Part shown: positions 13,056 through 21,627 of the stretch, piece by piece | Layout of the letters: every line of letters begins with the position of its first letter | How positions within the stretch are numbered: the first letter of the stretch is position 1 | Source: Glandiceps talaboti | Lineage: Eukaryota > Hemichordata > Enteropneusta > Spengelidae | DNA length: 64,000 nt | Direction: 5' to 3' | NCBI RefSeq assembly: GCF_964340395.1 | Contig: NC_135553.1 | Span: 22,721,449 to 22,785,448, forward strand | The notes under the pieces: generated by a model | What the model saw: the letters and a program-made list of their open reading frames with translations, nothing else | Told to the model about the DNA's origin: nothing | Database searches by the model: none | Program-made: the position numbers and the translations under genes

Positions 13056-15126
13056 ATGATGTCAGACCGAACCCATCCTCGGGCTTCAGTGTCTCCAGCT
13101 GCTGAGCGTCCCGCGGGGTTTTGGAGAAAACATGCTTTCACTGTCATTGTTTCTGTTGTGATGTTGGCATGTCTACTTGGAGGAGCAGCTGTGTTTAGGA
13201 GTTTTGAACATGAAAATGAATATGCTCATCGGACAAACCTCACCAACCTCTATGACAGCTTAGAAGAACAGTACGGCTTGAGCCCACATGACCGCGTCGC
13301 AAATATCCAAGCATATGAACATCTATGTCAAACCATGGAATTGTCGGAGGAATCACATGTACATTGGGATTTTCTGAATGCATTTTACTTTTCCTTTGAA
13401 GTGATTTCAACAATAGGTAAGAGTAAGAATTCGTGGACACTAATTTTGTGTGTGACACATTCGAGCGAGTTGGTGAACTACTATCATTGACAAGATTAGC
13501 GCCCTCGCTCGAGCAACTTTATATTTTTTTCAATATGACATGTTTATTTGAATTTAAAGCTGCATGCACTAGCTGCTGCAAATGGGAACATTAAAAAAAC
13601 CGAGTCTTTAGGTATTAACTTACTTGTACTGACTATCGTATACGTTGAACAATATTGAATCATTTGTGGATAAACGTACTTTTTGTAGCTGTATACATGA
13701 TATGATACAATACATCAAATAACGTCTAAACCTGCTAATGCACAACTTATGAAGATCGACCACTGAATAACACGTAAACTGTCTAAATATTAATATTTGA
13801 ACGGTTTTCAATGAATTAATTGTGGTTGTAAGATCGAAAAGTAATACTTCAGTTACAAATTAGTGCAGTTAAGTTCTAGTAACATGCATATAGTGACAGA
13901 TTCGAAACCAAACTGTACTACCTACAGCTAATATTGATCACAAAGTAACATATATGACACCTTTTTTTACTGAATATATCTTTGAATAAAAAATGCCGCT
14001 GTGGCAGTTGCAGCTAGTGCAGGACCTGGTTTAAACTGTCGAAATGTCTGTTTCTAAACACTTTACTGTTTAATTGCATCTGTTCAACTTCAAATGAAAC
14101 TGCTTAGTGTGTGCACGCACGCACACACACACACACACACACACACACACACACACACACACACACACACACACATATATATATATATATATATATATAT
14201 ATATATATATATATATATATATATATATATATATAGTGGCTGTATGTCTGTGTCTGTGTGTCTGTGCGCATGTGTGTTCTTGCGGGGTGGTCATGGGCGC
14301 CATGGGCTGATAAGGTGGAAGACGAAGTCTTGCTGACACGTCCACTATAGCTATATATATATATATATATATATATATATATATATATATATATATATAT
14401 ATATATATATATATATATATATATATATATATATATATATATATATATATATATATATATATATATATAGACTATACATATTCATGACCGAGATTATTAC
14501 AAGAGTTATCTTTCTTACTCTTTTCTAACAGGTTTTGGCAGGACAGCACCCCGAACCACCGGAGGCAGGATATTTTGTATGTTCTACGCCACAGTAGGCA
14601 TCGCACTTTTACTTCAGCTAACACTTACTCTCTATGATCGTTTCATAGTCTCTGATCATCCGAACAGGACGACTGCACTATGCAATTGTCGTCACGGCCA
14701 TGGCCACAGAGTGTGTAACTATACCACTGAACGTCCGATGGCTCTGTTGAAACTGTTTGTGTTTGACACGGTACTGTGGATTGGGACCTCATTAATGTAC
14801 TACAGTTTCGAGGACTGGACTTTTCCTCAATCTCTTTACTTCACTTTTACAACGTTCTATACGATTGGTTTCGGTGACTACATTCCCATGACAAGGCCTA
14901 GTTACGGGGGTGCGACTCCCGAGTTTGCATATCATTTTCTCAGCATTATCCTGACTATAGTTGGTTTTTTAGTGAATTTTGTGTTCGTTGCGAGTTTCAC
15001 AAAACTGTATAAGTACGATATCTTTGGCGCTCTACTAAGTGGATCCGCCGATAGAAAACAAACCCAACGAATATGGCTCTCCGAGGATAAATGTAACCAC
15101 TGTAGGTTACGTTTTAAAGACTCAAT
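13056..15126 (+). CDS. Module 1 of the tandem K2P (exons 1-2)
   Basis: Exon 1 encodes a short N terminus, TM1 (about residues 28-48), a long extracellular cap with an NLT sequon and a single Cys (EHLCQT, as expected for the K2P cap disulfide), then the pore helix [18 protein letters not shown]. Exon 2 supplies the rest of the filter (GFGRTAP), TM2, an unusual Cys/His-rich loop ([12 protein letters not shown]) in the TM2-TM3 linker, TM3 ending YYSFEDW, the second P loop with [12 protein letters not shown]4, and a C-terminal segment with a CNHC motif. The short His/Cys cluster might bind metal; that is inference. The intron between the exons carries AC/TA microsatellites. Confidence 0.88.
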
Positions 15127-21100: not shown

Positions 21101-21627
21101 TGTATTTTTTCTCTTCACTTTCTATAGGTGAAATTATTAAAATTGCTGTTGTATGGTATTGTATGGTGATGGCAGGAGGAACACTCTTCTATGCTCATGC
21201 CGAAGGATGGTCTTACTTAGTTGCATCTTACTTCGTCTTCATATCATCCTCAACAATTGGATTTGGAGACTTTGTGTCTGCAACAGAGCCTCAAGAGTAC
21301 TATATTGAAAGACTCGGACCTATCCTTGGGAAAATGTACCCTACCTTGAACATCATCTTCTTTGTTATTTCAGTCATCACCTATCTTCTGTTGGTGTACT
21401 GTGTTATGTTCATCACTAAGAGCGGTGTTGATTCTTTAAGCGATCGCATTGCATATAAAATCAACAAAAGACTTTACATGAGGAACCATAGGGTAGCACC
21501 ACTTGATTCGGATGTAGCCGGTAGTACGGATGGCGATGATTCACCAACGAGATGTTGCGAGAATTGTCTAAAACTGGCGTTGATGCTACGACCAAGTCGG
21601 GATTTACTTGCTACCATAGCTGATTAG
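13056..21627 (+). CDS. Tandem (double) two-pore-domain K+ channel: 8 TM, 4 P loops, ~968 aa
   Basis: Nine exons join in frame: 13056-13416, 14532-15126, 15405-15739, 16806-16991, 18135-18302, 18602-18892, 19709-19999, 20432-20611 and 21128-21627 (stop TAG). Every junction has GT-AG signals and matching phase. Two complete K2P modules follow each other, each with TM1, extracellular cap, P loop, TM2, TM3, P loop and TM4. Filters are TIGFG (119-123), TIGFGD (231-236), TTGFG (429-433) and TIGFGD (845-850). In both modules an intron splits the first GFG codon in phase 1, the position expected of K2P genes. Two K2P subunits normally dimerise to make a four-P pore; this chain could supply the whole pore. 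The modules meet at the 15126/15405 junction (donor CAAT|GTAAGT). An unspliced intron there would stop after two codons and leave an ordinary two-pore subunit. ATG at 13056 or 13059 is preferred; 12972 is also in frame. Confidence 0.85.
14118..14235. repeat. (AC)n-(AT)n compound microsatellite
   Basis: About 55 bp of AC followed by about 60 bp of AT, in intron 1 of the tandem K2P gene. Confidence 0.95.
14351..14468. repeat. (TA)n microsatellite
   Basis: About 118 bp of TA repeat ending some 60 bp before the exon-2 acceptor. Confidence 0.95.
15405..21627 (+). CDS. Module 2 of the tandem K2P (exons 3-9)
   Basis: Exon 3 (acceptor TTTGCAG|) starts in phase 2 and continues the codon left by exon 2 to give [18 protein letters not shown]1 follows ([19 protein letters not shown]), then an acidic cap with a Cys (HQHACHH) and the pore helix to TTTG. 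Exon 4 completes TTGFGTTQP and TM2. Exons 5-8 encode a long, Ser/Thr/Pro-rich cytoplasmic linker. Exon 9 encodes TM3 (ending YAHAEGW), the pore loop TIGFGDF, TM4 and a 60-residue C tail. No in-frame ATG with a promoter-like context precedes exon 3, and only 278 bp separate it from exon 2, so I read it as a continuation and not a separate gene. Polyadenylation candidates are at 21949 and 22281. Confidence 0.83.
15740..16805. other. Intron 3 of the tandem K2P gene, with AATAAA and a short tandem duplication
   Basis: Read-through of the exon-3 donor stays open to a stop at 15877-15879 and is followed at once by TTAATAAAAAAG (about 15885), a possible intronic polyadenylation site. A ~150-bp sequence (ATAAT..TTTTCAGTAATTAGGCTATA) occurs twice between about 16300 and 16510. 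Confidence 0.5.
16599..16795. repeat. (TC)n/(TGTC)n polypyrimidine microsatellite
   Basis: About 195 bp of TC interspersed with TGTC tetranucleotides, ending 10 bp before the exon-4 acceptor CCCCCTCAG at 16805. The array therefore merges with the polypyrimidine tract of that splice site. Confidence 0.95.
17155..17410. mobile_element. Truncated MITE (TA-flanked family)
   Basis: From the CCGTATGTGTAATGGC region through ATCTACCTACGCCACC to GTTTTTTTATTAGGCC this resembles 22740-23085 and the reverse complement of 27753-28123. The left end is poorly preserved. Confidence 0.55.
18135..18302 (+). CDS. Linker exon 5 of the tandem K2P (divergent copy of the cassette)
   Basis: 168 bp, phase 1-1. It shares the opening (LPMQTR / LPIQT), the centre (SNESTVAV / KESAVAV) and the ending (DRPYPQLD) with exons 6 and 7, but lacks about 40 residues from the middle-to-end portion. 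It is probably an older member of the same exon family. Confidence 0.75.
18602..18892 (+). CDS. Linker exon 6 of the tandem K2P (duplicated cassette, copy 1)
   Basis: 291 bp, phase 1-1, bounded by CTCTTACAG| and |GTAAGT. It encodes 97 residues rich in Ser, Pro, Thr and Val that end in DRPYPQLDE. It is almost identical to exon 7, differing at about a dozen residues or fewer. Because the length is a multiple of three and phases match, either copy could be skipped or used alone without changing frame. Confidence 0.8.
19040..19135 (-). mobile_element. tRNA-like SINE remnant
   Basis: On the minus strand, GGTTGCAGGTTCGAGTCAC includes a near-consensus RNA polymerase III B box (GGTTCGAGTCA, 19069-19079 on the plus strand). 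The A-box part is not convincing. Confidence 0.4.
19484..19593. repeat. TGTTG / GTT / GGT compound microsatellite
   Basis: A run of TGTTG pentanucleotides passes into GTT and then GGT trinucleotides, about 115 bp before the duplicated exon 7. Exon 6 has a GT/poly-G tract in the same relative position, so the repeat probably grew from a shared precursor in the duplicated intron. Confidence 0.9.
19709..19999 (+). CDS. Linker exon 7 of the tandem K2P (duplicated cassette, copy 2)
   Basis: 291 bp, phase 1-1, a near-identical twin of 18602-18892. The intron upstream was copied too: GTTTCGTTTCGCTTTCGCCG and the following ~60 bp occur before both exons (about 18470 and 19600). This is a recent local duplication of exon plus flank. 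If both exons are included the linker grows by 97 residues; mutually exclusive use is equally possible. Confidence 0.8.

Follow-up and report, generated by a model that had tools for sequence, protein, structure and literature searches.

Known two-pore-domain potassium (K2P) channels are assembled from two separate subunits, commonly as homodimers. Each chain of the family, such as TASK (KCNK3/9) or THIK (KCNK13), is a single subunit with four transmembrane helices and two pore loops (4TM/2P) in the order M1-cap-P1-M2-M3-P2-M4, with both ends in the cytosol. An intron that interrupts the GFG codon of the first pore loop (P1) is a trait of the family, and subunit pairing has been studied with artificial concatemers. 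Fungal TOK channels have eight transmembrane helices in one chain and two pore loops. Here we analyse a locus of the hemichordate Glandiceps talaboti at which a single chain appears to carry two K2P modules. It lies on the plus strand at 13056-21627 of a stretch of 64,000 nucleotides, referred to as the window (contig NC_135553.1, here C6, 22721449-22785448; genome 590 Mb in 47 contigs). Positions without a contig are those of the window.

Each module resembles a K2P subunit in the order of its elements, its potassium filters and the phase-1 intron in the first GFG codon, whereas the window product has two such modules in one chain. It shares the eight transmembrane helices with TOK channels and matches them weakly at the level of the pore, but has four filters rather than two pore loops. 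With good though not full confidence, we consider the locus to be one gene for a natural tandem K2P of 968 residues with two diverged 4TM/2P modules, as predicted from genomic DNA.

Several described systems bear on such a chain. Engineered TASK-2 concatemers, in which two K2P subunits are likewise fused C- to N-terminus, are functional, and their currents and pH response resemble those of free subunits (PMC3026807). These laboratory constructs contain one subunit type and had 148 residues removed at the joint, whereas the window gene is natural and its halves are diverged. CNGK is described as a natural pseudo-tetrameric chain of four K+-channel repeats (PMC4749565); each S1-S6 repeat carries a cyclic-nucleotide-binding domain there, while the window product has no such Pfam match. 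K2P caps can pair without a disulphide (PMC4726246). No natural K2P with eight transmembrane helices and four pore loops (8TM/4P) was found in the literature surveyed, which comprised titles and the openings of abstracts, mostly outside subscription journals. The "four P-domains" mentioned in PMC3879215 are those of glutamate receptors and were dismissed as a K2P parallel.

Results

Gene structure and near copy

The initial annotation had proposed nine exons that join in frame, and all of them are found at the proposed positions. Together they form 2907 bases, open throughout, that encode 968 residues and a stop. All eight introns are of the GT-AG type, with phases 1, 2, 1, 1, 1, 1, 1 and 1. 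Exon 1 (13056-13416) encodes the N-terminus, M1, the cap and the start of P1 of module 1, and its 3' end lies within the GFG codon in phase 1. Exon 2 (14532-15126) completes P1 (TIGFG) and encodes M2, M3, P2 (TIGFGD), M4 and the cytosolic tail of module 1, ending in phase 2. The modules are separated by intron 2 (15127-15404), which is 278 bp long and splits an isoleucine codon between AT and A. Exon 3 (15405-15739) contributes a 20-residue lead, M1, the cap and the start of P1 of module 2, and again ends within the GFG codon in phase 1; exon 4 (16806-16991) supplies the end of P1 (TTGFG) and M2. The cytosolic M2-M3 linker of module 2 starts in exon 5 (18135-18302) and continues through a tandem exon duplication, in which exons 6 (18602-18892) and 7 (19709-19999) each encode a 97-residue unit and are 93.8% identical in DNA, before ending in exon 8 (20432-20611). 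Exon 9 (21128-21627) encodes M3, P2 (TIGFGD), M4, the C-terminal tail of module 2 and the stop codon. The four filters expected from the initial annotation follow each other at residues 119, 231, 429 and 845. A likely polyadenylation signal is the first AATAAA 3' of the stop (21949-21954, +322).

A near copy of the gene (copy B) is located at C6:22696424-22705253 and begins 38.1 kb upstream of the window gene (copy A). It has the same nine exons and eight GT-AG introns, again with a phase-1 intron in the first GFG codon of either module, encodes 969 residues, of which 946 of the 968 aligned are identical, and has its AATAAA at +302. The copies differ by 29 synonymous and 24 nonsynonymous changes (Nei-Gojobori). 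With so few differences the ratio of nonsynonymous to synonymous rates (dN/dS) is rough; it is 0.24 overall, 0.158 for exons 1-2 (module 1), 0.288 for exons 3-4 and 0.318 for the linker exons 5-8. Exon 9 has zero nonsynonymous differences, and exons 3, 4 and 9 together give 0.207. When positions 1-24000 are compared with the 50 kb upstream of the window, the seven listed matches above 300 bp are 90-98% identical and all lie in 12796-23084. This confinement makes it less likely that copy B is an uncollapsed haplotype. Two of the seven matches pair the repeated linker exons crosswise.

A diverged paralogue on contig C2

A genome search with exons 3-4 (14 matches at E ≤1 from 19 candidates) returned, besides the two C6 copies, a locus on the minus strand of contig C2 (36%, E 9.5e-16), which was read in stretches of 4.0, 4.0 and 1.7 kb. 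Five exons were found there: exon 1 (C2:16168203-16167852), exon 2 (C2:16167091-16166470), exon 3 (C2:16165594-16165251), exon 4 with linker (C2:16163480-16162944) and a last exon of the exon-9 type (C2:16147275-16146776). Joined, they encode 784 residues with no inner stop. Donors and acceptors are GT-AG. The introns in the two GFG codons and the last intron are in phase 1, and the junction intron is in phase 2. The modules stand in the same order as in the window gene, while identity by exon is only 29-42% (48/115, 46/158 over residues 121-280, 33/93, 16/56 and 56/158 for exons 1, 2, 3, 4 and 9).

At the junction, the C2 gene has an intron of the same phase and the same ATA codon, split at the same point. 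Between the end of M4 and the M1 that follows, the two proteins align without gaps over 58 window residues, 11 of them identical. From the junction isoleucine onward, 7 of 20 residues are identical against 1.25 expected, which was reached in 1 of 20,000 shuffles. The layout is more than chance because it recurs in the near copy and, for the exons read, in the diverged paralogue. A joint that is kept between genes 29-42% identical by exon points to a lasting design and not to an accident of annotation. What the sequence itself shows is an open spliced frame that encodes two complete modules, together with a near copy and a diverged paralogue in which the junction is the same.

Linker exons are tandemly repeated in the window gene (18602-19999), and in the C2 gene exon-like linker stretches recur every 1023 bp. 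The units of the two genes are dissimilar; the linker seems prone to exon repeats.

The junction between the modules

Two adjacent K2P genes with separate transcripts could have been misread as one. Tandem arrays of K2P genes do occur in this genome, intron 2 is short, and read-through of its first bases meets a stop, all of which would suit two genes. Exon 3, however, lacks a start before M1: an in-frame stop lies 32 bp upstream, the first methionine is at residue 63, past M1, and from that stop to M1 of module 2 neither the window copy nor copy B has an in-frame ATG. Intron 2 of the window copy contains 13 candidate start exons (ATG to GT) and that of copy B contains 10; all of them lack a GTRAG donor. 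Seven of the eight polyadenylation-type hexamers sought, including AATAAA and ATTAAA, are absent from intron 2 of both copies; the eighth, the weak variant AATATA, is present a single time in the window copy and absent from copy B. The diverged C2 gene has the same junction intron. A start exon for module 2 farther upstream than intron 2 may be conceivable. On the evidence concerning a module 2 start and a polyadenylation signal, together with the C2 junction, we reject the two-gene reading, and the sequence makes two separate genes very unlikely. That two diverged K2P modules belong to a single gene and share its frame is supported by the splice sites, the missing module 2 start, the near copy and, most strongly, the diverged paralogue.

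A single gene could still be spliced often into single-module channels, the tandem chain being one isoform among several. This is compatible with a tandem gene, and we regard it as possible but rather doubtful. The exon 1 donor and the exon 4 acceptor both lie in phase 1 of a GFG codon, so that skipping of exons 2-3 would yield a 658-residue 4TM/2P chimera; retention of intron 2 would yield a 319-residue module 1; and the C2 gene has the phase-1 GFG introns as well. However, the matching phases are a legacy of the K2P intron, and any phase-2 GTAA donor yields a stop when read through; neither is a sign of use. A transcript ending in intron 2 would have to do so without AATAAA or ATTAAA. Exons 1-2 and exons 3-4 both show the low dN/dS given above and are kept in the C2 gene.

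Topology of the chain and pairing of the modules

Each module alone has the 4TM/2P layout, and the whole chain is 8TM/4P, unlike a single K2P subunit. Hydropathy of the window product gives nine peaks ≥1.2, which correspond to all eight expected transmembrane helices and the fourth pore loop, the weakest of them. The C2 product gives eleven, namely eight transmembrane helices, two pore loops and one stretch past M2 of module 2. At E ≤0.01, Pfam assigns PF07885 and PF00520 to module 1, PF07885 to module 2 and no other family; PF07885 is matched in two stretches per module (95 bits in module 1 and 56.7 bits in module 2, cut-off 22.5). The modules are too diverged for a sure subfamily, and their nearest solved relatives only are KCNK3 (6rv2) for module 1 (phmmer E 3.6e-32, 57 distinct sequences matched) and KCNK13 (9bws) for module 2 (E 1.1e-19, 47 distinct sequences matched). 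Module 1 aligns to solved K2Ps in one stretch, residues 25-275 of 318, and module 2 as two stretches that flank its linker. Both best matches cover M1 to P1, the cap region, where the M1-P1 segments are 54 residues long in module 1 and 51 in module 2. The 58 residues of the joint contain 13 K/R and 6 D/E, and the caps 2 basic and 11 or 8 acidic residues, as expected for a cytosolic joint and extracellular caps. All four window filters are intact; the chain may carry the K+-selective background current of K2P channels.

Since both ends of a K2P subunit are cytosolic, two subunits can be joined with their topology unchanged. M4 of module 1 would end in the cytosol, where M1 of module 2 would begin, and about 58 residues would tether the modules there. 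All four pore loops would face outside, as in two separate subunits. The modules would pack together in the manner of the two subunits of a K2P dimer, so that each chain makes a single pore in which the hetero-pairing is fixed. The linker of module 2 (~330 residues), which includes the duplicated 97-residue exon, probably serves as a regulatory arm.

It is also conceivable that the 8TM chain is made and that its modules pair between chains, so that two chains give two pores (1+1 and 2+2). The common homodimerisation of K2P subunits would favour this arrangement, which we nevertheless consider unlikely. The C2 gene indicates that the halves stayed linked while diverging, and, at 58 residues, the linker seems of sufficient length for the modules of one chain to pair with each other. 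The engineered TASK-2 concatemers behave like free channels. Most likely, the product is a natural pseudo-heterodimer whose two K2P halves are covalently paired, each chain forming one pore. We infer that the chain could form a complete pore alone, with which its topology and the engineered K2P concatemers agree.

Relatives in the genome and phylogeny

The genome contains a large K2P expansion: scoring of 150 out of 166 candidates gave at least 112 PF07885 matches, and several of these are clustered, with sites that include C4 23.54-23.64 Mb, C7 and C24. With the C2 product as query (56 matches, 59 candidates), the strong matches all belong to exons of the three genes; beyond these, none is better than 6.5e-8, and the top three of the remainder fall between P1 and the end of module 1. 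With exon 9 as query (49 matches, 51 candidates), the next match after the three genes is C1:22338877-22339164 (2.2e-8).

A tree of 20 rows was built from the four modules and 16 of the 47 proteins returned by the searches, with two rows front-trimmed and module 2 taken without its linker. The module 1s of the window and C2 genes pair at 96/96 and the module 2s at 100/97. When an ordinary TASK-type gene on contig C14 and another K2P of this genome were added (22 rows), the values were 96/94 and 99/98, and the C14 gene grouped with vertebrate and tubeworm TASK rows at 100/100. A recent internal duplication, with the window modules as sisters, is rejected (p 0.0012 with 20 rows, 0.0021 with 22). 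A clade uniting all four modules could not be rejected (p 0.058 and 0.067), which leaves room for an old internal duplication; the gene may have originated in this way or by fusion of different K2Ps. Because like modules pair across the genes (1 with 1, 2 with 2), the two-module gene is most likely older than the split between the C6 and C2 genes.

Decayed relatives are also present. A second part of a decayed exon of the M3-P2-M4 type, which begins left of the window, occupies 1-206 (plus strand); its filter is lost (TSLGDIDF), its frame is broken and it is a family member outside the gene. An open exon of the exon-9 type at 4075-4428 (plus strand) has a degenerate filter (ITMGDAHFG) and could be a family remnant or a non-conducting relative. 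The filter is lost in the C1 relative of exon 9 as well (ITMGVADFG). By their sequence, these three belong to a decayed or non-conducting branch of the same family. Such neighbours (1-4428 and C1) could suggest that the gene itself is a decaying or non-functional relic. Its open frames, the dN/dS well below 1 in both modules and the four intact filters argue against this, and we give the idea hardly any credence.

Two further observations concern K2P sequences in this genome. A 1759-residue open frame on C18 (stretch L028, minus strand from 5777) has one K2P-type pore at 1700 and is possibly a K2P with a giant M2-M3 linker. CxxC motifs at both module ends were considered as a clamp and dropped, because 7 of the 20 other K2P frames inspected also have CxxC motifs after their last filter.

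Other features of the window

A 155-bp satellite at 6925-10898 runs for 17.5 copies in one direction and then for 8.2 inverted copies (97% matches), forming a large palindromic array beside the gene. On the minus strand at ~26500-34200, ankyrin repeats and a patatin domain are encoded in PLA2G6-like open frames (two frames tested). A Maf bZIP gene is found at 59512-60042 (plus strand). PLA2G6 and MAFF also adjoin in human, and the PLA2G6-like/Maf block of the window may be old synteny. A 964-residue open frame at 53503-56394 (plus strand) matches DUF6589 (E 4.3e-9) and is perhaps derived from a mobile element.

Discussion

Several results weigh against the reading as a natural tandem K2P gene. 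The 18 residues before the junction isoleucine, together with the isoleucine, are identical at 2 of 19 positions between the window and C2 genes, which is chance level (5,771 of 20,000 shuffles were as good); conservation of the joint therefore rests on the intron, its phase, the codon and the stretch after the junction. The filters of the C2 gene are TIGLG, TTVGFGD, TTTGYG and TTVGFGD, the first of which departs from GYG/GFG. Its last splice is assumed, as 12.5 kb between exon 4 and the last exon lie outside the stretches read. With module 1 as query (80 matches, 88 candidates), the best match outside copies A and B is the C14 gene (C14:11503638-11504135, 33%, 8.0e-18), and the C2 exons score below it (5.2e-16 and 6.3e-14). 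The C14 gene has two exons and ends in a stop, with no second module within the 2.9 kb read. A close relationship between window module 1 and the C14 gene is rejected by the tree (p 0.0033) despite the search score, although long branches meet in both trees (a program warning), which makes them less sure.

The two-module fusion was also not found outside this genome in a word-based search of 5.8 billion proteins, which needs shared 5-residue words and could miss a distant fusion. The full-length query gave 23 hits (scoring was confined to the 8,000 candidates with most words in common), module 1 gave 24 and residues 200-490, across the junction, gave 1. The 23 full-length hits have two K+-type pore motifs each, and one has a chance-looking third; the module 1 search admits only proteins of ~175-556 residues and is blind to fusions.

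Taking these points into account, we still favour, a little more cautiously than the tandem gene itself, an old animal family of naturally concatenated K2Ps. Each chain would be a complete, obligately hetero-paired 8TM/4P channel whose halves co-diverged, and the family would be older than the C6/C2 duplication. A natural fusion of this kind fixes the pairing of diverged halves, so that each half could be altered alone to see its part in gating. If this is true, the K2P family repeats the step from subunit to repeat that is seen in Nav, Cav and CNGK channels.
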